Below, one piece after another: positions 61-54,300 of a stretch of DNA of 55,036 nucleotides; position 1 is the first letter of the stretch; every line of letters begins with the position of its first letter. This DNA is from Bacteroidaceae bacterium (lineage in GTDB: Bacteria; Bacteroidota; Bacteroidia; Bacteroidales; Bacteroidaceae). The notes under the pieces were generated by a model that had not been told where the DNA came from, did not search any database, and saw nothing but the letters and a program-made list of their open reading frames with translations. A program made the position numbers and the translations under genes. The DNA is taken from positions 1-55,036 of the forward strand of contig JAGCVH010000073.1 in assembly GCA_017962495.1 (NCBI GenBank). The letters are read 5' to 3'.

Positions 61-272
61 CGACTCGAACCTATGCCTTTTGTCAGTAAGCCTTCGGCCT
101 TCCGCGATAAGCCTTAGGCCTTCTGGATTAATCCCTTAGGGCTTCCGAATTAAGCCCTTAGGCCTTCCGAGCATCAAAACTATATTCAATCCACTTCGAA
201 CCTATATTCGAGTTGCATCGAACCTATGTTCGAAGAGCATCAAGCCTATGTTCGATTTCTTTCGGGCTTATG
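61..272. repeat. 22-nt-phased CTNAGG-type repeat array, copy 1
   Basis: Ten degenerate units follow one another with hexamer cores (CTATGC, CTTCGG, CTTAGG, CTATGT and similar) at about 71, 92, 113, 135, 157, 180, 202, 224, 246 and 267, so the period is 21-23 nt. Several units form small palindromes such as CGAAC-ctat-GTTCG. The array sits directly 3' of the rho stop codon. No open frame runs through it because 22 is not a multiple of three. Bases 1-60 to its left are AT-rich and show nothing I recognise. Confidence 0.75.
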
Positions 273-274
273 CC

Positions 275-2104
275 TTATGACTGCATGGTAGCCAACAACT
301 CTTCGTTGTTCAGCGTTCGGTCCATTCTGGTCTTAAGTTCGTTCATCGCCTCGATGGGGTTCATGTCGGACAGAACCTTACGCATCATCCACATGCGTTC
401 AAGTGTGGTGTTGTTGAGCAAGAGATCGTCGCGACGCGTACTACTTGCCACGATGTTTACAGCTGGGAAGATGCGCTTGTTGGCCAAGGTTCGGTCGAGT
501 TGCAACTCCATGTTACCTGTACCCTTAAATTCTTCGAAGATGACTTCGTCCATCTTTGAGCCGGTATCTGTTAGGGCTGTTGCGATGATAGTGAGCGAAC
601 CACCTCCTTCGATGTTTCGTGCAGCACCAAAGAAGCGCTTGGGCTTGTGCATTGCATTGGCATCAACACCACCAGTGAGCACTTTTCCGCTGGCAGGCGT
701 AACCGTATTGTAAGCGCGAGCCAAACGGGTGATGGAGTCGAGGAAAATGACTACATCGTGTCCGCACTCAACCATGCGCTTCGCCTTCTCAAGTACGATG
801 CCTGCAATCTTTACGTGTCTTTCTGCAGGCTCGTCGAACGTGGAGGCGATAACCTCGGCGTTAACGGTGCGAGCCATATCTGTAACTTCCTCGGGACGTT
901 CGTCGACGAGCAACATCATTAGGTATGCCTCGGGATGATTGCGTGCTATGCTGTTGGCAATATCTTTCAGGAGCAGTGTCTTACCCGTTTTCGGCTGTGC
1001 AACGATGAGGGCGCGTTGTCCTTTACCAATAGGTGCGAAGAGGTCTACGACACGTGACGAGAGCGAATCGCCCTTTCCTGTGCAAAGCTGGAACTTTTCA
1101 TCGGGGAATAGGGGAGTCAGGTGCTCGAAAGGACTGCGGTCGCGTGCAATGGTGGGATTGCAGCCGTTAATTGTTACTGCCTTTATCAGAGGGAAATACT
1201 TCTCGCCTTCGCGTGGCGGACGAACTGGGCCTTCGACCACATCGCCTGTTTTCAAGCCAAGGGTCTTGATTATCTGCTGACTTACATATATGTCATCGGG
1301 CGAAGCCAGATAATTGTAGTCGCTCGAACGAAGGAAGCCGAAACCCTCAGGCATTACTTCCAAGACGCCTTCGCCCTTAATCTTCTCACCAAAGTCATAA
1401 CGGGGATTGATGGCTTTTTCTTCGGCCTTCTCTTCGGCTTGTAAGCGTGAGAAATCGGAAACTGCTTTATCTTCGGGCATCATGCCGAATTGTGGGTTTT
1501 CTTGAGAGGTTTCAGTCGGTTCGATGTCTTTAAGGATGATGAAGTCTGGTTCGTCGCGTTCGAAGAAATCAGTGGAATACTTTTCCTTGGAAGTTATCTT
1601 TCCAACCTTCTGAGCTTCAGTTTTCTCCTTGCTTTCGACGGGTTCTTCGGCGGGCTGTGCTGAGGACTTGGAAATGCGCGTACGCTTTTTCTTCGTTTTG
1701 GGTGCCTCCGCAGTAGTTTCCTCAGGCGTATTCTCGGGTTCTGCTACGGGTGCAATAGGTTCCTCGGCAGGTTCCGCTTCTTTCGTCTTTTTCGGGCGTC
1801 CACGCTTCTTTGCAGGAGTGTCAGGAGCCTCTTCCTCCTTCTTCTTGGCTTCGCCTTTTGCAGGGGCAACAGGTTCTGTTTCGAAGAGAGAAGGTCCTTC
1901 TTCGATTTTCTTTTTATCTTCTTTCTTAGGTCTCCCGCGCTTCTTTGGCTTTTCCGTCACGGGGGGAATCGGCATTGTTGATTCCTTATCTATGATGTTG
2001 TAAATCAGAGACATCTTGTCATTGGACATTTGAGCGCCTATGCTCAGTCCCAACTCCACGAGTTGTTCGGGAGTCATGCTTTCGAGTTCACTCTTTGTAT
2101 GCAT
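275..2104 (-). CDS. rho: Transcription termination factor Rho with long disordered N-terminal insert
   Basis: Hexameric RNA-dependent ATPase that ends transcription in the cytoplasm. The N-terminal Rho domain (about residues 1-45) is followed by roughly 200 residues of Lys/Glu/Pro-rich low complexity. That insert holds two AT-hook-like motifs (KKRGRPKK, near residues 55-61 and 99-106). The RNA-binding fold resumes near residue 250 with [13 protein letters not shown], and the ATPase core has Walker A QPKTGKT near residue 370 and a well conserved C-terminus. At 609 residues it is far longer than the roughly 420 of E. coli Rho; such inserts are known in Bacteroidota, where the B. thetaiotaomicron one has been linked to phase separation. 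The ATG start is 72 nt downstream of a good promoter. Identity is certain; DNA binding by the hooks is inference. Confidence 0.97.
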
Positions 2105-3965: not shown

Positions 3966-4080
3966 CTTTGTCTTCCAGCAAAAGCCCTTAGGTCTTCTGC
4001 AATAAGGCCTATGTTCGTTAGCAATCGAACCTATGTTCATTGGTCATTGAACCTATTTTCGTTGCGTCTAAGGCCTAATA
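3966..4080. repeat. 22-nt-phased CTNAGG-type repeat array, copy 2
   Basis: Six units have cores at 3966, 3987, 4009, 4031, 4053 and 4075, five steps of 21-22 nt. Cores include CTTTGT, CTTAGG, CTATGT and CTATTT. The array fills most of the gap between the divergent lipoprotein and ABC-F genes (3828-4166). A long open frame happens to cross it, which creates an apparent N-terminal extension of the ABC-F protein. Confidence 0.75.
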
Positions 4081-4166
4081 TCAATTTCGGTTGTTACGAA
4101 AGCATCTTTTTGCCAAGAATTTGTTTATCTCGCCAAATTACATTATCTTCGCAGATATTTTACTCG

Positions 4167-6095: not shown

Positions 6096-6641
6096 ATGGC
6101 AACAAAAATTAGATTACAGCGTCACGGTCGTAAAGGCTATGCCTTCTACAGCATCGTTATCGCTGATGTAAGAGCTCCACGAGATGGTAAGTTTACAGAG
6201 AAGATTGGTACTTACAATCCTAACACCAATCCTGCCACTGTAGATTTGAAATTCGATCGTGCCCTGTATTGGGTTGGCGTTGGCGCACAGCCTACCGACA
6301 CCGTACGTAACATTCTCAGCCGCGAAGGTGTGTATTTGAAGAAACACCTGCTTGCTGGTGTGAAGAAGGGCGCATTTGACGAGGCCACTGCAGAGGCTAA
6401 GTTTGAGGCATGGAAGGCAGATCGCCAAAAGGGTCTGAATGCTATTGCTGCAAAGCTTGCTGCAGACAAGAAGGCTGCTGAGGCAGCTCGCTTGGAGGCT
6501 GAGAAGAAGGCTAACGCCAAAGTACAGGAGAAGGTAGCCGAGAAGAAGGCTGCTGAAGCTGCTGCTAAGGCCGAGGCAGAAGCTGCTGCATCAGAGAACA
6601 CAGAAGCTACAGAGACTAACGCCGAGACAACCGAGGCTTAA
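6096..6641 (+). CDS. rpsP: 30S ribosomal protein S16 with long Ala/Lys/Glu tail
   Basis: The core (about residues 1-85) is a canonical bS16: [20 protein letters not shown], then [13 protein letters not shown] and the TDTVRNIL region. The C-terminal ~95 residues are low-complexity Ala, Lys and Glu (for example [18 protein letters not shown]) and are predicted to be a helical or disordered extension. Total length of 181 is about twice the usual 80-90; long S16 tails are common in Bacteroidota. It is transcribed alone from its own promoter, ends at an intrinsic terminator, and lacks the rimM-trmD neighbours usual in other phyla. Role: 30S assembly and structure. Confidence 0.97.
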
Positions 6642-6692
6642 AAACCAAAACAGTTAAAAATTTTATTCTAATAGATTATTCCAAACAACAGC

Positions 6693-6730
6693 GAAAGGGC
6701 TCCGCCGTGAGGTAGGGCCCTTTCAATATT
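6693..6730 (+). terminator. Intrinsic terminator of rpsP
   Basis: GAAAGGGC at 6693-6700 pairs with GCCCTTTC at 6717-6724, followed by AATATTTTAT. It lies about 50 nt after the rpsP stop. Confidence 0.75.
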
Positions 6731-6755
6731 TTATGTGGGTTTGAATTTACTTAAT

Positions 6756-6845
6756 CTGAGGTTCGAGATTGTACAAGCGAGCGCTTAAGCTTATACAAGC
6801 AAGGGCTTGAGGTTGCTCAAGCAATGGCTTAAGGTTGTACAAGCT
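6756..6845. repeat. 22-nt-phased repeat array, copy 3 (GCTTNAGGTTG variant)
   Basis: Cores CTGAGG, CTTAAG, CTTGAGG and CTTAAGG lie at 6756, 6784, 6806 and 6828. The last two steps are exactly 22 nt, and each of these units ends in a CAAGC-type motif. The array lies between the convergent rpsP and CPBP genes and runs into the latter, supplying its last codons (LVQP) and stop. Confidence 0.65.
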
Positions 6846-7749
6846 CTTCGTCCTGCTTTACTATTGCGTCGGCTTGGGGTTGTGCAATCTCGGCTGTCAG
6901 TTTCTCCACGTTATGATGGTGGTTATGATGATGGTGGTGGTGATGCTCATCTTCGTCGTTGCGGGTAATGTGCTTTCTGTGATATTGTTTCCAGAACTCC
7001 ATAAGGAAGAGAATGCATAGCCCCGTGCAAATGATAATATAAACCCATGCAATGCCAGAGCCTCCTAAAAGCTCTGCATAGCTGATATCGTTTGCACGCT
7101 CTCCTAAAGCAAGTGTTTCCACAACGGCAATAGAGTTGTTTAGGATGTGAATGATGCTGGTCAGGACTATACTATGGCTCTTAACATAAACTACACCCAA
7201 GACAACACCCATTATGAAGGCAAAGGGAATCTGCGCTGGATTGAGGTGAATGATGCCGAACATCAATGCAGAAAAGAGTATGGCAACCCACCTGTGTTGA
7301 CCGCGACGGATGAGATAGCCGATAATGCCCTCGCGGAAAACTATTTCCTCTATGATAGGACCAATAATGGCGATGGCTAACACTCCCCAGAACGAATGGC
7401 AAAGATTGCCCATTAATGCCTCTATCGAGTTGGGCAAGTCGACCTTTTCATTCAAGAGGTTGGCGGCGATAATGCCCATTAATGCACCTACAATAGCAAG
7501 AGGTGCTTTTCTCCAGCTTATGTATTTGGGATTAACGACTCTCCATTTTATCATTTTCATCCTATGCAGGATGCAAACGGTGAGCACTCCACTTATGATG
7601 AGACCAAGTGCTATCATGGTGGCCTTTCCTACCTCGCCAAACTTAGCGGCAACACCTATCCAACCAATAATTCCTCCAACGAGAAGCTCCATCAAAATGA
7701 ATACGAAAACAGCAATAATTGGCTTCCAAAATACCTTCATTTCATTCAA
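6829..7749 (-). CDS. CPBP-family (CAAX protease/bacteriocin-processing) intramembrane metalloprotease with His-rich tail
   Basis: This multi-pass membrane protein of 306 residues carries the Abi/CPBP signature: EEIVFREG (the EExxxR motif near residue 133), then FGIIHLNP with the metal-binding His, and a further conserved region near HILNNSIAV. About eight hydrophobic segments are visible. Relatives process prenylated proteins or peptides, or give self-immunity to bacteriocins; the substrate here is unknown. After the last membrane helix comes a charged tail with a striking cluster (DEDEHHHHHHHNHHHN) that may bind Zn, Ni or Cu. The final residues and stop codon fall inside a 22-nt repeat array. 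It is a single gene with a minus-strand TACTTTTG box at 7768-7775. Confidence 0.88.
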   Translation of the reverse strand: MNEMKVFWKPIIAVFVFILMELLVGGIIGWIGVAAKFGEVGKATMIALGLIISGVLTVCILHRMKMIKWRVVNPKYISWRKAPLAIVGALMGIIAANLLNEKVDLPNSIEALMGNLCHSFWGVLAIAIIGPIIEEIVFREGIIGYLIRRGQHRWVAILFSALMFGIIHLNPAQIPFAFIMGVVLGVVYVKSHSIVLTSIIHILNNSIAVVETLALGERANDISYAELLGGSGIAWVYIIICTGLCILFLMEFWKQYHRKHITRNDEDEHHHHHHHNHHHNVEKLTAEIAQPQADAIVKQDEELVQP

Positions 7750-13381: not shown

Positions 13382-13677
13382 GAAGTGAGAAGGGGCAGGG
13401 GGCAAGAGGATACGCTTGCTGCTTGTAAATAATAAATTACTGAATATTTCTCCTGCCCCCTGTCTACTGCTCCTTACCCACATAAGTGACTCTCTTCTGA
13501 TACTCTAGAAGCGATGGATGAGAATAACAGGGTATTAGCGCGAATGATATTAGGGCTTAGGACTTCGATTGAAGAGAAAAATAAAATTAATAATAACTAG
13601 ATAAGGTCGGAGGTCGCATTGGTCAATACATTTCTCTTGCCCCTTGCCCCTTGCCCCTTGTCCCTAAAAAAAGTACT
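13382..13677. other. Intergenic region rnfA-galE with low-complexity repeats
   Basis: This 296-nt gap has an inverted pair CAGGGGGCA (13397-13405) and TGCCCCCTG (13454-13462) that can form a hairpin after rnfA. A CCCTTGC-type heptamer is repeated just before galE at about 13636-13665. A solitary CTTAGGACTTCG near 13556 resembles a unit of the 22-nt arrays. No gene seen. Confidence 0.5.
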
Positions 13678-23149: not shown

Positions 23150-23210
23150 TCGCGCTCGATTGTATAAGCGTTCGAGATTACTCGAACAAGAGCGTGAAGT
23201 GGATTCTTTA
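23150..23210. repeat. Short repeat patch related to the 22-nt arrays, copy 4
   Basis: Contains the palindrome GTTCGAG-atta-CTCGAAC with flanking GCGCTCGATTGTATAAGC and AAGAGCG pieces. These resemble the GTTCGAGATTGTACAAGCGA variant near 6760. Only two to three units are seen, so membership is less sure than for the other copies. Confidence 0.4.
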
Positions 23211-25042: not shown

Positions 25043-25122
25043 GGGGATTGGACAATTGGACGATTGGACAATTGGACAATTAACCGTGAAATCGTGAAAT
25101 CGTGAAATTGTGAAATAGAAAA
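25043..25122. repeat. Tandem GGACAATT and CGTGAAAT octamer-type repeats between kdgK and eda
   Basis: The 80-nt gap consists of GATTGGACAATTGGAC-type units followed by four copies of a (C/T)GTGAAAT-type unit. It has the look of slippage-generated filler at a gene junction and encodes nothing recognisable. Confidence 0.6.
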
Positions 25123-25800
25123 ATGAGTCGTTTTGATAAGCTTGCAGTAATGCAGAAGATAGGGGAGACTGGTATGGTCCCCGTGTTCTATCACAAAGAT
25201 GCGGAGGTGGCAAAGAAAGTCATCAAAGCATGTTATGACGGAGGCGTTAGAGCCTTTGAGTTTACCAACAGAGGCGATTTTGCACAAGAGGTGTTTGCCG
25301 AGTGTGTGAAATATGCTGCAAAGGAATGTCCCGAGTTGGCTCTGGGCATAGGTAGTGTTGTGGATGCTCCCACTGCAGCACTTTACATTCAGTTGGGCGC
25401 TTGTTTCGTGGTTGGTCCACTCTTTAATCCTGATATAGCTCCAGTATGCAATCGCCGACTGGTTCCTTACTGTCCTGGTTGTATGACAGTTAGTGAGATA
25501 GGAAAGGCTCAGGAACTGGGTTGTGACCTTACTAAGGTGTTCCCTGGCGATGTGGTTGGTCCTAATATGGTGAAGGGTTTGAAAGCTCCTATGCCTTGGT
25601 CAAAGATTATGGTAACTGGAGGTGTGTCTCCCGATGAGGAGAACCTCACCAAGTGGTTCAAGGCTGGAGTCTATTGTGTGGGTATGGGCTCGAAACTCTT
25701 CCCCAAGGATAAGGTGGAGGCTGAGGATTGGGCTTATGTCACCAATAAGTGTAAGGAGTGTCTGGAGATTATCAAGAGGACTAAAGTGAATAAGGAGTAG
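25123..25800 (+). CDS. eda: Bifunctional KDPG/KHG aldolase
   Basis: Class I aldolase splitting 2-keto-3-deoxy-6-phosphogluconate into pyruvate and glyceraldehyde 3-phosphate; members also act on 2-keto-4-hydroxyglutarate. The (beta/alpha)8 barrel of 225 residues shows the conserved [10 protein letters not shown], the [14 protein letters not shown] segment in place of the usual FxVSP, and [20 protein letters not shown]. The Schiff-base Lys cannot be placed with certainty by eye. Its last codons (aagGAGtag) merge with the GGAGTAAA repeats that flank the following four-helix-bundle gene, so the extreme C-terminus may be element-derived. Confidence 0.93.
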
Positions 25801-25832
25801 AAGGAGTAAAGGAGTAAAGGAGTTAAGCCGAT
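25801..25832. repeat. Left inverted-repeat arm flanking the four-helix-bundle gene
   Basis: AAGGAGTAAAGGAGTAAAGG followed by AGTTAAGCCGAT. Its reverse complement matches 26223-26259 with a few differences (GGCTTAACTCC is exact). It lies 5 nt before the start codon of the gene. Confidence 0.7.
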
Positions 25833-26222: not shown

Positions 26223-26262
26223 ATTGGCTTAACTCCATGACTCCTTAACTCCTTAACTCCTG
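26223..26262. repeat. Right inverted-repeat arm flanking the four-helix-bundle gene
   Basis: ATTGGCTTAACTCCATGACT, then repeated CCTTAACT units. It starts 9 nt after the gene's stop and is the imperfect reverse complement of 25801-25832. A T-run at 26264-26270 follows, so the arm could also serve in termination. Confidence 0.7.
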
Positions 26263-26272
26263 TTTTTTTATT

Positions 26273-27136
26273 ATGAAAAAACAAAACCAATGGATTATCC
26301 CCGAAGGTCAACCTCTTACTGAGATGGACCGCATCATTCTGGATGCACAAAACAGAGGTAAACTCGTACCTACAAGGGAACTCATAAAAACTCCGGAACA
26401 GATAGAAGGAATACGCAAGGCTGGAGTGCTGAACACAAGTGTGCTGGATAAGGTTACGGAAATCATCCGTCCGGGTATGTCAACATTGGAAATTGACAGA
26501 CTGGTATATGACTACACCACAAAGCACGGAGGCATTCCTGCACCACTCAATTATGAGGGTTTTCCCAATTCATGTTGCACCTCAGTCAATGATGTTGTGT
26601 GCCACGGCATTCCCTCTGAAACAGAGATACTTGAGGAGGGCGATATCCTGAATGTGGATGTTACAACCATACTCGATGGCTATTATGCTGATGCCAGTCG
26701 CATGTTCGTCATAGGAGGAAAGACTGAACCCCGATGGCAAAGACTGGTGGATGTGGCATGGGAATGCCTGAAAATAGGAGAGGAAGTGTGTTCTCAACCT
26801 TACGTCTATGTTGGTGATATCGGTAATGCCATACAGAAACATGCCCATAAAAACCACATGTCGGTAGTAAGAGACCTGTGTGGGCATGGAGTGGGGTTGG
26901 AGTTCCATGAGGAACCTGATGTTGAGCATTATGGACACAAAGGAACAGGAATGCTTCTTGTGCCAGGTATGGTATTCACCATCGAACCTATGATTAATCT
27001 TGGTCGATATCAGGTTTGCCTCGATGAAGATGACCCCACGGAATGGGTTGTGGTAACGGAAGACTACGAACCCAGTGCTCAATGGGAACACACCTTTGTG
27101 ATGACGGAGAATGGGGTGGAGATCTTGTCTAAATGA
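26273..27136 (+). CDS. map: Methionine aminopeptidase, type I
   Basis: Removes the initiator Met from nascent proteins. The pita-bread fold is complete with its metal ligands: the two Asp of VDVTTILDGYYADASRMF, the His of CGHGVGLEFHEEP, Glu of FTIEPMIN and Glu of WEHTFVMTENGVEIL. Length is 287, with an N-terminal extension of about 40 residues (MKKQNQWIIPEGQPLTEMDR) before the family core starts at KTPEQIEGIRKAG. The gene lies just after the four-helix-bundle cassette and 10 nt before tsaD. Confidence 0.96.
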   Translation: MKKQNQWIIPEGQPLTEMDRIILDAQNRGKLVPTRELIKTPEQIEGIRKAGVLNTSVLDKVTEIIRPGMSTLEIDRLVYDYTTKHGGIPAPLNYEGFPNSCCTSVNDVVCHGIPSETEILEEGDILNVDVTTILDGYYADASRMFVIGGKTEPRWQRLVDVAWECLKIGEEVCSQPYVYVGDIGNAIQKHAHKNHMSVVRDLCGHGVGLEFHEEPDVEHYGHKGTGMLLVPGMVFTIEPMINLGRYQVCLDEDDPTEWVVVTEDYEPSAQWEHTFVMTENGVEILSK

Positions 27137-27146
27137 AGAATTAAGA

Positions 27147-28199
27147 ATGAAGAGTGAAGAATTGAGGGGAGGGTCCTCTTCCATAATAATCCTTGGTATT
27201 GAAAGTTCTTGTGATGACACAAGTGCGGCTGTCATTAAGGATGGAGTGTTGTTGAGTAATGTTACTGCCAGTCAAGCAGTACATGAAAGCTATGGAGGAG
27301 TTGTTCCCGAATTGGCAAGCAGAGCACACCAGCAAAATATAGTACCAGTAGTTGACCAAGCACTTAAGAGAGCAGGCGTTAGTAGGGAAGACCTCTCTGC
27401 TATAGCCTTCACACGTGGACCTGGTCTTATGGGTAGTTTGTTAGTGGGAGTCTCATTTGCTAAAGGTTTGGCTGCTTCCTTAGGTATTCCTATGATAGAA
27501 GTCAACCATCTGCAGGGTCATGTACTTGCACACTTTATTAAAGCAGAAGGCGAAGAATACAATCCTCCCAAGTTCCCCTTCCTTTGTCTCTTGGTAAGTG
27601 GTGGTAATTCGCAGATTATCAAGGTGAAAGCCTATAATGATATGGAAGTCATCGGACAGACCATTGACGATGCTGCAGGTGAAGCTATTGATAAAGCTGC
27701 TAAAGTGATGGGGTTAGGCTATCCAGGTGGACCAATTATCGATAAACTGGCTCGTCAGGGCAATCCCAATGCACTTCAGTTCTCCAAACCACACATTCCG
27801 GGTTATGACTATAGTTTCTCGGGCCTGAAAACATCATTCCTCTACAACCTTCGCGATTGGATGAAGGAAGATCCCGACTTCATAGAGCATCATAAGGAAG
27901 ACCTTGCTGCTTCATATGAGAAAGCAATAGTTGATACGCTGATGAATAAACTCCGTCTTGCTGCCCGTGACTTGAGGATAAGACAAATAGCTATGGCCGG
28001 AGGTGTGAGTGCAAATACAGGACTGCGAAATGCCTTCCATGAGTATGCCGAAAAGTATCATTGGAAGATATTCATTCCCAAGTTTAGTTACACCACCGAT
28101 AATGCAGCCATGATAGCCATTACGGGCTATTTCAAATACCAAGATAAGGACTTTTGCCCTATGGAAGCACCAGCATATAGCAGGGTGACAATAAAATAA
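27147..28199 (+). CDS. tsaD: tRNA N6-adenosine threonylcarbamoyltransferase
   Basis: Catalytic subunit for t6A37 in ANN-decoding tRNAs. Family signatures: ILGIESSCDDTSAA at the N-terminus, metal-binding VNHLQGHVLAH (HxxxH), the LLVSGGNSQI loop and the C-terminal TTDNAAMIA. I start at 27147 (350 residues). A further-upstream ATG would overlap map, and the MKSEELRGGSSS lead-in appears derived from AGAATGAAGA filler repeats, so the true start might even be nearer the SIIILGIES segment. All active-site motifs are intact. Confidence 0.95.
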   Translation: MKSEELRGGSSSIIILGIESSCDDTSAAVIKDGVLLSNVTASQAVHESYGGVVPELASRAHQQNIVPVVDQALKRAGVSREDLSAIAFTRGPGLMGSLLVGVSFAKGLAASLGIPMIEVNHLQGHVLAHFIKAEGEEYNPPKFPFLCLLVSGGNSQIIKVKAYNDMEVIGQTIDDAAGEAIDKAAKVMGLGYPGGPIIDKLARQGNPNALQFSKPHIPGYDYSFSGLKTSFLYNLRDWMKEDPDFIEHHKEDLAASYEKAIVDTLMNKLRLAARDLRIRQIAMAGGVSANTGLRNAFHEYAEKYHWKIFIPKFSYTTDNAAMIAITGYFKYQDKDFCPMEAPAYSRVTIK

Positions 28200-32847: not shown

Positions 32848-32922
32848 TTTGGGTCTTCAGTCGGAAGGTCTAAGGTCTTTGAGAATAACCCCTAATGCTT
32901 TCGGCAAGAAGGCTTAGGGGTT
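32848..32922. repeat. 22-nt-phased CTNAGG-type repeat array, copy 5
   Basis: Cores TTTGGG (32848), CTAAGG (32870), CTAATG (32892) and CTTAGG (32913) step by 22, 22 and 21 nt. The last two units are complementary to one another and form the terminator at 32887-32925. Confidence 0.7.
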
Positions 32923-35075: not shown

Positions 35076-35176
35076 ATCTTCACAAAAGTACGAATAAAAT
35101 GATAATTGAGAAAATGAGAGAATGAGAAAATGAGAAAAAATTGGTAAATGGTAATTGGTAAATGGTATTTTATTTG

Positions 35177-37550: not shown

Positions 37551-37600
37551 TCGTTAACCCTTTAACCTTTTAACCAGTTAACCCTTTAACCCGTTAAACT

Positions 37601-37807
37601 TTACTCTTCCTCGGGTTGAAGTTCTTCGGCAATCTCGTCAACGAGGCTGCTCATTTCCTTTGAGGACAGACGTATGCCACGCTTGCGAAGTGCCTCGGCA
37701 ATACGGTCACGAAGTTCGCTTCCCTTTTCAGGTGCTAACAATAAACCAGCGGCAGCTCCAATGGCAGCTCCGCCCACGAATGCTACAAAATAACTGAATG
37801 CTCTCAT
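37601..37807 (-). CDS. YtxH-domain small membrane protein
   Basis: 68 residues. An N-terminal Gly/Ala helix (YFVAFVGGAAIGAAAGLLLAP) followed by EKGSELRDRIAEALRKRG is the YtxH signature (GAxxGAAAGLLxAPxxG). The acidic C-terminus ends in QPEEE. First gene of the operon; between it and the holin-like gene lie about 50 nt of GTTAACCCTTTAA repeats. A minus-strand TACATTTG at 37844-37851 is a fair -7 box. Confidence 0.85.
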   Translation of the reverse strand: MRAFSYFVAFVGGAAIGAAAGLLLAPEKGSELRDRIAEALRKRGIRLSSKEMSSLVDEIAEELQPEEE

Positions 37808-37925
37808 AGCTGTTTTTATTAATGGTTAGTAATGTATCTGTGGCAAATGTACAAAAAGTTCAGAGTTCAGAGTTCAAAGTTCAAAGTTTTTTCTTTCTTT
37901 TTAACGTTTTTTTAGGCTTAAAGGC

Positions 37926-39585: not shown

Positions 39586-41574
39586 ATGAGAAAGTATGTT
39601 CTGTTTCTCCTATTATTTATCCTTCCTTTGACGGGAAGGTTAGGAGGAGTCTTATTTGCACAGATTAATACCGACCGCGTGATGCTTATGGGGCGCAATG
39701 CCCTCTATTATGAGGACTATGTGCTTTCCATTCAGCGATTCAACATGGTCATAAATGCCAAGCCATTTCTTTCCGAGCCTTATTTCTTTCGTGGTTTGGC
39801 CAAATTCTATCTTGAGGATTATAAAGGAGCAGAAATCGATTGTTCGAGTGCAATCGAACGTAATCCCTACACCGAAGACCCTTATGTCTTGCGTGGCCTA
39901 TGCCGAGTCAATATGAAAGCCTATGACTTGGCTGAGCAAGACTATCTTCGTTCAACAGATATAAATCCTCGCAATCAGGGTTCGCTTCACAATCTTGTTC
40001 TGTGCCAAATGGAACAGAAAGCCTATGAACGAGCCGACAGTAGTCTTGATGTTATGATTCGCCGTTGGCCCAAGGAGGCTGAAGGCTATACGATGAAAGC
40101 CCAAGTTTGCTTTGCCCAGTCAGATACGGCAAATGCTGAAAGCTGGATTGACCGCGCTCTTGAGGTTAATCCTTTCGAAGGTCCTGCTTGGAGCATGAAG
40201 GCTATGGTGGTCCTTAATCGAGGGCAATACAAGGAAGGTGAGGAGTGTCTCGATAAAGCTATCGTACAACTTCCCCGTAATGCAAGCCTTTACATCAATC
40301 GTGCTCTTTCTCGCTTCCAGCAACAAAACCTTCGCGGGGCTATGTCCGACTATGATGCTGCGCTCGAGATTGAGCCTGGCAACTATCTTGGACACTTCAA
40401 TCGCGGACTTCTTCGCGCTCAGGTTGGTGATGACAACAGAGCCATCGAGGACTTTAACTTTGTTCTCAAACAAGAACCAGACAACACTATTGCCCTCTAC
40501 AATCGTGCTCTCTTGCTTGACCAGACGGGTGATTACAAAGGAGCACTCCGCGACATTACGGCAGTTATCAATGACTATCCGGAGTTCTGGACAGGTTATC
40601 AGACACGTGCTCAAATTCGTCGTAAGTTAGGCGATGTCTATGGTGCAGAACGCGATGAGTTTAAGGTCCTTAAGGCGGAGATGGAGAAGCGAACGGGTAC
40701 TTATAAGAGCAAATCCAAGACCAGAAAGAAGAGTGAACGTAATCCTGAAGACTATAATAAAATTGTGGAAGCCGACACGCAAGAGCCAGAACGCGAGGAG
40801 TATGCAAGCGAGTATCGTGGAAAAGTCCAGAATCGCCAGACCGATATGATGCCGCTTCCCCTCTATGTTCTCACGTATTACAAACAAGCTACGCAATTGG
40901 TAAGTTACATCCCTTATCATCGCACAATCGAACAATTCAACCAGTCGGGTCAGCTTCCGCTTCCGCTCTATCTCTCCAATGCCGAAGCCAATGCCTCGGA
41001 AGAGCGTATGCAACAGCACTTTGCCGATGTGGCGGCTGTAACTGAAGTCTTGGGCGATAGTCCTGAAACCACTGGTCTCCACCTTCGTCGTGCTATGGAT
41101 TATTATCACTTGCGCGATTTCGATGCCTGCCTATCCGACCTCAATCGTGCTGTAGAACTTCAGCCCCTCGTTTGTTTGTCTTATTTCCTTCGTGCTCAGG
41201 TGCGTTGTGCATTGTTACAGGTTTCTTCGGGTAAGGGCTCGGCACCTTTGTCACCCACCAATGAAGCCCGCATTGGCTATGGTCAGGCATTAGACGACTT
41301 GCACAAAGTGCTTGAGTTGGAGCCAGATATGGTTTACGCGCAATATAATATAGGTAACATTTACGTCTATCTGCACGAGTATGACCACGCCATCGAGGCT
41401 TATTCTCGCGTTCTTGAGATGCAACCTCAGTTCCCCGAAGCCTATTATAACAGAGGTGTTGTGCGTTTGCTCGATGGTCATCGCGAGGAGGGTCTTCGCG
41501 ATTTAAGTCAGGCAGGAGAACTTGGCTTGTATAGTGCCTATAACCTTATTAAAAGGTATTCCAACGCGAAATAG
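39586..41574 (+). CDS. Secreted tetratricopeptide-repeat protein
   Basis: 662 residues: signal peptide (MRKYVLFLLLFILPLTGRLGG), then about eight TPR units in the first 370 residues (for example AIEDFNFVLKQEPDNTIALY and ALRDITAVINDYPEFWTGYQ). A basic, charged linker follows (KSKSKTRKKSERNPEDYNK), then a second TPR block at the C-terminus (DLHKVLELEPDMVYAQYNIG). Such proteins are periplasmic or outer-membrane scaffolds; the partner is unknown. Last gene before the largest 22-nt repeat array. Confidence 0.88.
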   Translation: MRKYVLFLLLFILPLTGRLGGVLFAQINTDRVMLMGRNALYYEDYVLSIQRFNMVINAKPFLSEPYFFRGLAKFYLEDYKGAEIDCSSAIERNPYTEDPYVLRGLCRVNMKAYDLAEQDYLRSTDINPRNQGSLHNLVLCQMEQKAYERADSSLDVMIRRWPKEAEGYTMKAQVCFAQSDTANAESWIDRALEVNPFEGPAWSMKAMVVLNRGQYKEGEECLDKAIVQLPRNASLYINRALSRFQQQNLRGAMSDYDAALEIEPGNYLGHFNRGLLRAQVGDDNRAIEDFNFVLKQEPDNTIALYNRALLLDQTGDYKGALRDITAVINDYPEFWTGYQTRAQIRRKLGDVYGAERDEFKVLKAEMEKRTGTYKSKSKTRKKSERNPEDYNKIVEADTQEPEREEYASEYRGKVQNRQTDMMPLPLYVLTYYKQATQLVSYIPYHRTIEQFNQSGQLPLPLYLSNAEANASEERMQQHFADVAAVTEVLGDSPETTGLHLRRAMDYYHLRDFDACLSDLNRAVELQPLVCLSYFLRAQVRCALLQVSSGKGSAPLSPTNEARIGYGQALDDLHKVLELEPDMVYAQYNIGNIYVYLHEYDHAIEAYSRVLEMQPQFPEAYYNRGVVRLLDGHREEGLRDLSQAGELGLYSAYNLIKRYSNAK

Positions 41575-41594
41575 TAATCTCGGTTTTCATAACC

Positions 41595-41840
41595 CTTAGG
41601 CCTTCTGCACGGAACCCTTAGGCCTTCTACGCGAAACCCTTAGGCCTTATTTCGGAGGACCTAAGGCGCAAATGAATTGAACCTCAGGTGCAAACAAATC
41701 GAACCTCAGGTGCAAATGAATCGAACCTATGGTGCAAAACCGGAAGACATAGGTCTTGTTGTCGGAAGGTCTTAGGAGTTATGTTCGAAGGTTGTAGGAG
41801 TTTTGTCCGAAGGTTGTAGGAGCATTGAAGGATGATTGAG
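41595..41840. repeat. 22-nt-phased CTNAGG-type repeat array, copy 6 (best example)
   Basis: Cores lie at 41595, 41617 and 41639 (CTTAGG), 41661 (CTAAGG), 41683 and 41705 (CTCAGG), 41727 (CTATGG), about 41749 (ATAGG), 41771 (CTTAGG), 41793 and 41815 (TGTAGG): eleven units in register at 22 nt. Flanks between cores differ (CCTTCTGCACGGAA, TGCAAATGAATCGAA, TTATGTTCGAAGG and so on). The 41640-41715 part matches copy 7 in reverse orientation. Lies in the 390-nt gap before thrS; the remainder of the gap is the thrS promoter. Confidence 0.9.
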
Positions 41841-41902
41841 CAACCATCGACCTGAGGAAGAGCAATCGTGGCTTGTCGGATGCAAGTTTTTCTCAAACTT
41901 TG

Positions 41903-41964: not shown

Positions 41965-43908
41965 ATGATAAACATTACTTTTCCTGATGGTTCAGTTCGC
42001 CAGTATGAAGCAGGCGTGACTGGCCTACAGATTGCAGAGAGCATTTCGCCTCGTCTGGCACAGGACGTGCTTGCATGTGGCGTTAATGGTGAAACCGTAG
42101 AACTGAATCGCCCCATTAACGAGGATGCTCAGTTCGTACTTTATAAGTGGGACGACAAAGAAGGAAAACACGCCTTCTGGCACACCTCTGCCCACCTGAT
42201 GGCTGAGGCCCTGCAGGAGCTTTATCCTGGTATTCAGTTCGGTATTGGTCCCGCCATCGAACAGGGTTTCTATTACGACGTTATGCCTACCGAAGGGGTA
42301 ACCATTCGCGAAAGCGACTTCCCTGAGATAGAGAAGAAGATGATGGAACTGATTCAGCGTAAGGAGGAATTGGTGCGTAAGGACATCTCTAAGACCGACG
42401 CCCTTAAGTTCTTTGGCGACCACGGTCAGACCTATAAGAACGAACTCATTGCCGACCTCGAGGACGGACATATTACTACTTACACTCAAGGTAACTTCAC
42501 CGACCTCTGTCGTGGTCCTCACTTGACCAGCACAGCTGCCATTAAGGCTTGCAAGATATTGTCGGTATCTGCTGCATATTGGCGTGGCGATGAGAAGCGT
42601 CCGCAAATGACTCGTCTCTATGGTATCACATTCCCCAAGAAGAAGATGCTGGACGAGTATCTCGTATTACTCGAAGAAGCGAAGAAGCGCGACCATCGCA
42701 AGATTGGTAAGGAGATGGAATTGTTCATGTTCTCCGAGCGCGTAGGTAAGGGATTGCCCATATGGCTTCCCAAAGGTACAGCCTTGCGCCTTCGCCTTGA
42801 GGACTTCTTGAAGAAGATTCAGAAACGTTATGGATACCAGCAAGTTATCACTCCGCACATTGGTGGTAAGAACCTATATGTAACCAGTGGACACTACGCT
42901 CACTATGGCAAGGATTCGTTCCAACCCATCCATACGCCTGAGGAGGGAGAAGAGTACATGCTGAAGCCCATGAACTGTCCTCACCATTGCGAGATTTATG
43001 CTTCGAAGCCTCGCTCTTATAAGGACCTTCCTTTGCGTCTGGCTGAGTTTGGAACCGTTTATCGTTATGAGCAGAGTGGTGAGTTGCACGGACTTACTCG
43101 TGTTCGATCGTTCACGCAGGATGATGCTCACATCTTCTGCCGTCCCGATCAGGTTAAGGATGAGTTCATTCGCGTGATGGAAATCATTCAGATTATCTTT
43201 GGTGCGCTTGACTTTGAGAACTTTGAAGCTCAGATAAGCTTGCGTGATCCCGAGGATAAGGAGAAGTACATCGGTAGTGACGAGGTTTGGGAACACGCCG
43301 AACGCGCTATTATCGAGGCTTGCGAGGAGAAGGGCTTAAAGACAACTACCGAACTTGGTGAGGCCGCTTTCTATGGTCCCAAGCTCGACTTCATGGTGAA
43401 GGATGCTCTGGGACGCCGTTGGCAGTTGGGTACCATTCAGGTTGATTATAACCTGCCCGAACGCTTCCAGCTCGAATATGTAGGTGAAGATAATCAGAAG
43501 CATCGTCCAGTAATGATTCATCGTGCTCCCTTCGGTTCTATGGAACGCTTCACAGCAGTGCTCATCGAGCATACTGCCGGGCATTTCCCCATTTGGCTCT
43601 CTCCTGACCAGGTTGCAGTACTGCCCATCTCGGAGAAGTTCAACGATTATGCAAAGCAGGTGTGCAAGGAACTTGAAGCTCAAGACGTTCGCACTGTGCT
43701 TGACGATCGCAATGAGAAGATTGGCCGTAAGATTCGTGACAACGAACTGAAGCGTGTGCCTTATATGCTCATCGTGGGCGAGAAGGAACAAGCAGACGGA
43801 ACTGTAAACTTCCGCAAGCAAGGCGGTGGTGGTCAGGGAACCATGACTGTTGACGAATTTGCCAAGAAAATCAATGACGAAGTACGTGCATTAACTGAAA
43901 AGTATTGA
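41965..43908 (+). CDS. thrS: Threonyl-tRNA synthetase
   Basis: Class II synthetase of 647 residues. Order: TGS domain ([16 protein letters not shown]), editing/SAD domain with [10 protein letters not shown], and catalytic core with zinc-ligand [10 protein letters not shown] (near residue 338), motif 2 [24 protein letters not shown] and motif 3 in the [12 protein letters not shown] region. The C-terminal anticodon-binding domain ends at [10 protein letters not shown]. All domains are complete. It is followed by infC after 87 nt, the standard thrS-infC-rpmI-rplT arrangement. Confidence 0.98.
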
Positions 43909-45429: not shown

Positions 45430-45688
45430 AAAAAGAAAGGACTATCCCGATGGGGTAGTCCTTTTCTTATATAAAAGCCGCACTTGGTGATGTGATGAAA
45501 CTCCGAGCTAACATGTTTTGAGCGCCCGCAACCTTTGTAATCCGCCGGTACTCGCGTACTACCCTTCACAGGGCGCGGCCCGCCATTGGAGTGCGTAAGC
45601 ATTCTCGGTTTTCAGTAATAATTTGATGAGTATCCCAGTCAAACCTTGTGCGGCTGTTCGTTTCAGAGCCTCTGCTCCTTTCTCACAT
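45430..45688 (-). ncRNA. Candidate structured small RNA, antisense-oriented, downstream of rplT
   Basis: On the minus strand a TAACTTTG promoter box (45691-45698) is followed by about 255 nt without a good reading frame. The transcript would end at a strong terminator (stem 45436-45464, then CTTTCTTTTT). Long-range pairing closes the molecule: AGCCGCAC and GTGCGGCT (plus-strand 45476-45483 and 45648-45655) are exactly complementary. Nested inside are CCGAG/CTCGG (45503-45507 with 45604-45608) and an apical CGCG..CCCT/AGGG..CGCG hairpin (45553-45577). Position after L20, size and promoter-to-terminator unit resemble what I remember of the 'Bacteroidales-1' RNA motif; a 6S-type RNA is the main alternative. 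It is not RNase P, tmRNA or SRP RNA by motif. Confidence 0.7.
45436..45464. terminator. Bidirectional terminator of rplT and of the minus-strand RNA
   Basis: AAAGGACTA (45436-45444) and TAGTCCTTT (45456-45464) with TCCC/GGGG inside form a perfect stem. T-runs follow on both strands. Confidence 0.85.
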
Positions 45689-49762: not shown

Positions 49763-49787
49763 ATGCTTGCTGATGAGATTGTACAAC

Positions 49788-49962
49788 CTTAAACGATAAG
49801 TTCTACAACCTTGGGCAATAAGCTGTACAAGTGATGACGTTTGCACCTGAGGTCTTCCAGATTTGCACCTGAGGTTCGATTCATTTGCGCCTGAGGTTCG
49901 ATTCGTTTGCGCCTAAGGTCCTCCGAAATAAGGCCTAAGGCTTTCTCGTCTAAGACATAGGT
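49788..49962. repeat. 22-nt-phased CTNAGG-type repeat array, copy 7
   Basis: Cores at 49788 and 49810 (CTTAAA, CTTGGG), then 49847, 49869, 49891 (CTGAGG), 49913, 49935 (CTAAGG) and about 49957 (ATAGG): five successive 22-nt steps in the second block. From about 49855 to 49940 the sequence is the reverse complement of 41640-41715 with few mismatches. It fills the gap between the convergent M6 and TPR genes (49662-50063), which otherwise contains the two terminators. Confidence 0.9.
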
Positions 49963-53991: not shown

Positions 53992-54133
53992 AAAGAGAAT
54001 AATATTATTGAATTCACAATTCATAATTCACCGCTCGGCATCCCGAAGGGTGACGCTTGCGAAAGCAAGAACTCCGCGAAGCTAACTCCCCTTTAACTTC
54101 TTTTTAACTCCATTTCTCTAATAAATAATAAGG

Positions 54134-54190
54134 TTTAGGGCTTCCGTCAGAAGGCCTTGGGATGTCGCGACCAGTCCCTTGGGATTCCTC
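54134..54190. repeat. 22-nt-phased CTNAGG-type repeat array, copy 8
   Basis: Cores TTTAGG (54134), CTTGGG (54156) and CTTGGG (54178) at exact 22-nt steps. Between them are GGCTTCCGTCAGAAG and ATGTCGCGACCAGT. Lies in the gap between the secreted protein and the degraded gene (53942-54300). Confidence 0.65.
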
Positions 54191-54300
54191 TCTCTACCAC
54201 TATACAAAGATAGTGATAATCTTTTAACTATTCAAGTTTTACATGCATTTTTTCAAGTATTTCTTTAATATTTTATGGCGGTTTTGACGATTCCGCAAAC

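Follow-up and report, generated by a model that had tools for sequence, protein, structure and literature searches.

Which kind of element keeps a step of exactly 22 nt while its lettering changes? This question is raised by an intergenic array at 41595..41840 of the window, the window being the whole 55,036-nt stretch of DNA that was analyzed. The first-pass annotation had claimed a strict 22-nt register for this locus, and this description held, as the 11 rows of the array (delimited here as 41587-41828) keep one register through three unit types without slipping. Their cores read, in order, CTTAGG (three times), CTAAGG, CTCAGG (twice), CTATGG, CATAGG, CTTAGG, and TGTAGG (twice). According to Pfam matches, the array is flanked by a TPR-protein gene (39586-41574) and a threonyl-tRNA synthetase-like gene (41965-43908).

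Within this main array, period 22 was reported by Tandem Repeats Finder (TRF) at 41591-41648, 41659-41738, and 41760-41822, and elsewhere in the window at 87-170, 196-255, 4008-4063, 6769-6844, 49782-49830, and 49861-49919. A self-comparison at lag 22, calling a segment at an identity of at least 68% over 44 nt, yielded six segments representing five clear arrays (100-272, 3990-4067, 6759-6851, 41575-41851 with two segments, and 49833-49941). Zero segments were obtained for the window at lags 20, 21, 23, 24, 25, and 26, and likewise for 60 dinucleotide-shuffled windows at lag 22. The following features were catalogued:

41587..41828, no strand assigned: main array, 11 rows of 22 nt in a single register
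87..282, no strand assigned: array of about 9 rows, CCTTAGG-type and then CGAACCTATGTTCGA-type units in one register (TRF, lag-22 scan)
3969..4083, no strand assigned: array of about 5 rows, CCTTAGG and then GAACCTATGTTC type (TRF, lag-22 scan)
6753..6862, no strand assigned: array of about 4-5 rows, TTGTACAAGC / GGCTTAAGG dyads (TRF, lag-22 scan)
49765..49962, no strand assigned: array of about 9 rows, TGTACAACC type and then CACCTGAGG / CGCCTAAGG type (TRF, lag-22 scan)
32848..32922, no strand assigned: possible decayed array, CTAAGG-like cores every 22 nt by eye, under the scan threshold
54130..54195, no strand assigned: possible decayed array, TTTAGGGC / CCTTGGGA, under the scan threshold

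Of the related arrays that had been proposed elsewhere in the window, four are thus clear, and three candidates are indistinct, their best lag-22 self-similarity over 44 nt amounting to 52% (32848-32922), 48% (54134-54190), and 48% (23150-23210); by eye, CCTNAGG-like cores occur in the first two and none in the third. Judged by Pfam matches, the array at 87..282 overlaps the stop, and hence the 3' end, of a gene for a 609-aa Rho factor (275-2104, minus strand), the array at 3969..4083 lies upstream of an ABC-F-like gene, in a divergent gap, and the remaining two are located in convergent gaps, namely between the S16 and Rce1-like genes (6753..6862; the sister species G017 is without it) and between an M6-peptidase-like gene and one whose TPR matches fall below the threshold (49765..49962). 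Rfam matches above the gathering score were limited to a Bacteroidales-1 RNA and a tRNA, with none at the arrays. The former, a 6S-like RNA, is encoded at 45470-45655 on the minus strand (126.5 bits).

The window belongs to a 2.95-Mb MAG, from which 455,036 bases (the window plus 400 kb) were sampled, the outside stretches being taken from long contigs first met through array matches. At lag 22, 26 segments were called, 20 of them in the 400 kb beyond the window, and 23 of the 26 lie mainly outside ORFs. Lags 20, 23, 25, and 26 gave 0 segments each; lags 14 (10 segments) and 21 (9) were raised because of 7-nt repeats. The autocorrelation of noncoding sequence, proposed as a check in the first-pass annotation, peaked at lag 22 (z 17.9) and at lag 44 (z 8.5). 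Furthermore, the pattern CCTNAGG-N(4-30)-CCTNAGG was found 156 times in the whole genome versus 7 times for the reversed control, with a core-to-core gap of exactly 15 nt, equivalent to period 22, in all but one among the matches listed, and consecutive CCTNAGG pairs within 90 nt were spaced by exactly 22 nt in 35 out of 42 cases. Different unit types in one array often share a register. Between core types the register is imperfect, since CCTNAGG and GAACCTAT centers lie 22.5 apart in 4 of 10 neighboring pairs, and TTGTACAA has no common step with CCTNAGG. Arrays in this genome comprise 2-6 units, four not being favored. Units are degenerate and abut without spacers, and identical repeats with unique spacers were not seen; a CRISPR array was therefore rejected, and the earlier view that the locus is neither a CRISPR array, a microsatellite, nor a coding repeat was borne out.

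A separate kind of repeat in the same genome comprises 7- and 8-nt tandem repeats, detected by TRF in the window at 13636-13665, 25047-25124, 25792-25827, 26228-26261, 27132-27162, 35096-35167, 37554-37602, and 37855-37888. The 455-kb sample contains 27 period-7 and 14 period-8 segments, 400 kb from other orders contain 0 of both, and 400 kb of Hallella contain 3 and 2, respectively. The A/T content of the 22-nt unit runs through three cycles in the own genome, in G012, and in the Hallella family H2 (three of six array families; 45-52% of variance), a rhythm close to the 7-nt repeats of the same genome. By eye, TTCCG and TTATT endings are common to the arms of the own and G012 arrays.

To follow the arrays into relatives, mostly MAGs (61-100% complete where stated) were sampled at 115-455 kb per genome, and core patterns were picked by eye from the arrays. 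With the own array sequence as a query, matches (E up to 0.001) were obtained in only 2 of 41 genomes, the own one and G017; a sequence-based comparison misses the element because all that is kept from one species to another is its period, its symmetry, and its size. In ten genomes of the same genus (363.6 kb), 15 lag-22 segments were called, with 0 at lags 19, 20, 25, and 26 and one at lag 23. Two genomes of this genus were particularly rich: G012, with core GGTTAACC, had 21 lag-22 segments in 163.6 kb, and G008, with core TAACGTGTTA, had 13 in 120 kb, lag 22 being far above all other scanned lags in both except for lag 44 of G012. In the other genomes lag 22 was less distinct: G016 had 6 segments in 119.4 kb (lag 21: 7, lag 14: 8), G003 5 in 114.7 kb (lag 18: 4), G017 2 in 220 kb (lag 23: 2), and, in 120 kb each, G011 3 (lag 18: 5), G021 3 (lag 21: 4), and G004 1. 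Hallella multisaccharivorax DSM 17128 harbors two array families (H1 and H2) with 25 lag-22 segments in 400 kb and one each at lags 23 and 24, a density that is biased because the 20 stretches sampled were partly picked around known matches; its genome contains 36 matches to its own thrS-upstream arrays. In Parabacteroides sp. PH5-46, 46 array matches on both strands were found at 23 places. Other families of the order (16 genomes, 257.7 kb) gave a single, array-like segment (L165), and other orders and classes of the phylum (ten genomes, 400 kb) gave no such array, their one segment being of low complexity by eye. Among 80 thrS loci, 16 lag-22 segments were called in 11 loci, next to 17 and 18 segments at lags 14 and 21; by eye, one of the lag-22 segments is a CT run (L109) and another a 7-8-nt repeat (L060, position 5858).

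The six families thus obtained are built on CCTNAGG, GGTTAACC, TAACGTGTTA, CARYTG alternating with ACGATCGT, TTTACNNNGTAAA, and GGTACGT. For the two Hallella cores, pairs within 60 nt are spaced by exactly 22 nt in 35 of 39 and 29 of 31 cases, for the G008 core in 12 of 12, and for ACGATCGT in the whole Hallella genome in 13 of 13 (reversed control: 0). The sequence comparison showed, as far as the sampled genomes represent their species, that the 22-nt period stays between species while the core is renewed. The suggested selection on phase is supported to the extent that the 22-nt step appears constrained, spacing being exact across different cores. Four units are the modal array size in four of the six families (G012, 15/21; H1, 9/12; H2, 6/10; Parabacteroides, 9/20, with 6/20 arrays of five units); G008 arrays have 2-3 units with the pattern used, four not being favored. 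Array ends look specialized, as if the element were capped: by eye, G012 arrays are A-rich at the left and T-rich at the right end, and G008 arrays end in cores such as CTGCAG or CTAG (special-looking ends at L141, L142, L145, L175-L180, and L195-L198 of these two genomes).

Near dyad symmetry, core renewal at a fixed period, and a scarcity of perfect palindromes are the features added here to the earlier description. Since sites were collected with palindromic core patterns, the symmetry of the core itself is given by choice. Beyond the search pattern, positions ±7.5, 8.5, 10.5, and 11.5 match in 92-98% of H1 sites, ±8 in 92% of H2 sites, ±5.5 to 7.5 in 92-96% of Parabacteroides sites, and ±5.5 and 6.5 in 78-83% of G012 sites; in the own genome the additional symmetry is weaker and found at ±4 and ±6. 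A further dyad is visible by eye 11 bp away in both Hallella families, H1 and H2, so that the array alternates inverted half-sites. The sites of Parabacteroides sp. PH5-46 (L285-L304) carry the same letter at ±2.5 (G..G or C..C) in 87% of 83 cases; these near-palindromes are thus polar, and by eye the polarity often flips once per array.

Of 377 sites, 3 were perfect palindromes across their nine inner positions, versus 29.9 expected after re-pairing of arms. Sites within one array are related by descent; with one site taken from each of 107 arrays, 1.0 was found versus 8.2 expected, a value as low occurring in 0.1% of 1000 re-paired draws. Arm matching is below the re-paired level in five of the six families (z -2.2 to -5.5), the own family being at z 0.0. 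Positive pairing covariation was recorded at ±4 and ±6 in the own genome (z 4.4 each), at ±5.5 (z 5.1) and ±6.5 (z 4.0) in G012, where stray TTAA sites were part of the set, and at 5.5 of the G012 linker dyad (z 4.7). Pairing between units in 15 four-unit G012 arrays revealed none that was kept (16 comparisons, z -2.5 to 1.3). A per-array dyad test against column-permuted units was weak in the own genome, with a mean z of 1.35 and a p value not exceeding 0.05 for 8 of its 26 arrays. Period-27 control repeats scored equally high (2.2 versus 1.73 and 2.46 for 22-nt arrays of kin), and the dyad argument rests on the position-wise and re-pairing tests. In a hairpin the two arms of a site would match, which is not what these sites show. 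The scarcity of perfect palindromes together with the lack of kept unit-to-unit pairing in the G012 arrays argues for dyad-symmetric protein sites on double-stranded DNA, tiled every two helical turns, rather than for terminators, REP/RAYT elements, or hairpins of RNA or single-stranded DNA.

Gene context was counted four times: with ORFs only, twice with a gene finder at a 66% threshold, and with a better-trained one at 61%. The main count used the latter, a home-made finder based on codon usage, for gaps of 80-1500 nt in the own, G012, G008, and Hallella genomes. Of the 63 convergent gaps, 28 contained an array, as did 35 of the 214 co-directional and 15 of the 88 divergent ones, an enrichment in convergent gaps with p 4e-4 versus divergent and p 1e-5 versus co-directional gaps (Fisher). 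Within co-directional gaps, the array was closer to the upstream stop in 26 of 35 cases (p 0.006), which supports the suspected link with gene 3' ends. Genomes differ in this respect, with arrays in 7 of 7 convergent gaps of G008 and in divergent gaps of G012 (5/13) and G008 (3/8). Leaving out Hallella, the numbers were 20/35 convergent, 27/140 co-directional, and 10/52 divergent. The stricter count (66%), in which Hallella gene calls are poor, showed a weaker bias, with 23/65, 31/247, and 14/79, respectively (convergent versus divergent p 0.02), with 22 of 33 co-directional arrays closer to the upstream stop (p 0.08).

Taken together, the arrays are dispersed intergenic elements and may be short tilings of abutting, approximately dyad-symmetric 22-bp double-stranded sites, i.e., candidate phased operator-like arrays of a Bacteroidales class, an interpretation of sequence patterns to which we give a substantial chance, somewhat short of even. 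Each unit would bind one dimer of a predicted DNA-binding protein, adjacent dimers, two helical turns apart, would lie on the same face and could bind cooperatively, and the assembly might act as a local barrier or organizer where transcription units end, either by curbing read-through and collisions or by anchoring supercoils. Protein and core would be replaced together in evolution, with the geometry retained. Dimer symmetry, exact two-turn spacing, one geometry in several sequences, and the rarity of hairpin-perfect units fit a cooperative binder of double-stranded DNA, and their location near the ends of genes suggests a role in insulation or in organizing the chromosome locally. The bolder version is doubtful, namely that Bacteroidales chromosomes carry a nucleoprotein lattice of dimer sites every 22 bp, often four, whose geometry would be conserved, whose sequence would be rewritten genome-wide in each species along with a fast-evolving DNA-binding protein, which would mark or insulate transcription-unit ends, and whose sites would be symmetric for the protein and imperfect against hairpins. 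Several core types occur per genome, and one protein would hardly read them all. The search for a binder covered one family, Lrp/AsnC, whose octamers were suggested by the four sites, and found no binding protein: the segment that we take to be the recognition helix (CGVSRAA[VI]HQR) of the sole AsnC match in G012 is the same in the G008, G011, G016, and Hallella copies (20 of 22 matches fetched), so that this candidate, constant though the cores differ, was rejected.

The main rival is a selfish or neutral element, similar to a MITE or minisatellite such as BrickBuilt, made by a copying enzyme or by slippage in a fixed 22-bp step and surviving where it is least harmful, between convergent genes; we regard it as a real possibility, tentatively held and well below even. 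Its copies are dispersed and alike within a species, and the convergent enrichment also fits tolerance. At two convergent loci an array is present in the own genome and absent in G017, and in RUG12892 (L031), the closest kin that has a name, the gene pair at the thrS-like gene is by eye the same while the array is missing. Among 27 syntenic gap pairs with both gaps of at least 80 nt, arrays were present in both members of 1 pair, in one member of 2, and in neither member of 24; at L127/L188 the own genome and G017 both have an array, and at L122 G017 gene calls overlap and no array is found. This weak positional conservation counts against the protein-site reading. Flanks speak against the selfish element, as no sign of a leader, tail, or terminal inverted repeats was seen in 60-nt flanks: alike flank pairs numbered 1/861 in G012, 1/231 in H1, 0/171 in H2, and 0/10 in Parabacteroides, where flanks are few, and 7/190 in the own genome, some of which probably continue the array. 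A neutral copier also leaves unexplained the dyad symmetry in differing sequences, the common four-unit size, and the scarcity of perfect palindromes, although the latter could stem from their mutational instability. The selfish reading explains dispersal and presence/absence better, and geometry worse, than a protein lattice.

Improbable are topology sites, in which phased sequence would be wrapped by a nucleoid protein or DNA gyrase at the 3' ends of genes, the places where positive supercoiling accumulates. The bias to 3' ends and convergent gaps would suit them, as would the preference of E. coli gyrase for phased G/C variation, regions downstream of operons, and BIME-2, described in the source text available (PMC6379681). 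However, no 10-11-bp G/C phase is shared, period 11 accounting for 2-19% of A/T-profile variance over the six families with mixed sign, and the sharp, species-specific base identities exceed bendability.

The '3'-end RNA element' option of the first-pass annotation, with 3' untranslated hairpins or bidirectional terminators, fared worse and is judged very improbable. The arrays form more stable folds than dinucleotide-shuffled sequence (mean z -3.0), as near-palindromes must; a T-tract ends several G012 arrays, and a simple terminator scan called one site inside the array at 6753-6862, on the minus strand (chance mean 0.6). On the other hand, sense and antisense fold energies are equal on average (mean difference +0.6 kcal/mol for 22 co-directional arrays), and neither the absence of unit-to-unit compensation in G012 nor the palindrome deficit suits an RNA. 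Moreover, at 6641-6829 of the window a strong, terminator-like hairpin with a T-rich tail lies 3' of the S16 gene in the own genome (6693-6724, -22.7 kcal/mol), outside the array, and G017 has its counterpart (-27.0 kcal/mol) without an array; the terminator scan calls this hairpin in G017 and not in the own genome.

An origin as REP/BIME elements that a Y1 (RAYT) transposase has dispersed is hardly credible: the arrays are near-palindromic, intergenic, close to 3' ends, and present in many copies, but hairpin-perfect units are rare, and Y1_Tnp (PF01797) was matched in 3 of 11 genomes, weakly in each (G003, G017, and Hallella, which is array-rich with one match just over the cut-off), and not in the own, G008, and G012 genomes (85-88% complete, the genomes being incomplete).

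Constant spacing under replaced lettering, in one group of gut and rumen bacteria, hints at a rigid protein-on-DNA structure. If the protein-site reading is true, such bacteria would possess a previously unknown architectural or insulator system, and a protein would have co-evolved with its dozens to hundreds of sites across the genome; if the arrays are selfish, they would be the product of a minisatellite maker that works in fixed steps of 22 bp. Both readings differ in their predictions, and with H. multisaccharivorax DSM 17128 a cultured strain with arrays exists.

Among known systems, plasmid iterons and other phased operator arrays consist of protein-bound sites about two helical turns apart, iterons being direct repeats at an origin. 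The spacing is alike, whereas here many near dyad-symmetric arrays occur per genome. Intrinsic terminators were rejected for want of a compensated RNA hairpin with a T-run, some G012 T-tracts and the one in-array call notwithstanding. In the portions of the literature available, REPs are described as stem-loops that carry a GTAG/CGTC tag and are accompanied by a RAYT, the CGTC type also occurring in Bacteroidetes, and REP/BIME-2 elements, functional analogues like the gyrase sites below, resemble the arrays in their many extragenic palindromic copies near gene 3' ends, with BIMEs alternating in orientation and proposed to bind protein and gyrase (PMC2817692, PMC3733652); the arrays differ by their scarce hairpin-perfect units, their step of 22, and the fact that no RAYT was found in the own, G008, and G012 genomes. 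Gyrase-preferred sites, as far as the text available shows, are likewise helically phased and downstream of operons (PMC6379681), whereas the arrays have strong species-specific cores and no common G/C phase. The earlier statement that no described family fits is to be qualified, in that near relatives in kind exist. In the literature searched, as available in part, nothing on 22-nt dyad arrays in Bacteroidales was met apart from one paper, on the BrickBuilt MITE of Porphyromonas gingivalis (Klein et al. 2015, PMC4596501). According to its available text, BrickBuilt comprises 23-nt imperfect tandem units, intergenic, with 19 elements in ATCC 33277, and a leader and a tail with IS5-type terminal inverted repeats, reported in P. 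gingivalis and P. gulae. On this partial account, it shares with the arrays the order Bacteroidales, the strictly intergenic position, a near-equal unit length, the absence of spacers, dispersal, and a variable unit number. It differs in its period and its conserved flanks, and the cores here differ per species; by unrelated flanks (G012, H1, H2) and a period of 22 rather than 23, a BrickBuilt-type MITE was rejected. The same paper cites earlier genome work on 22-nt direct repeats in P. gingivalis W83, and by analogy these repeats could be the same thing as the arrays described here.
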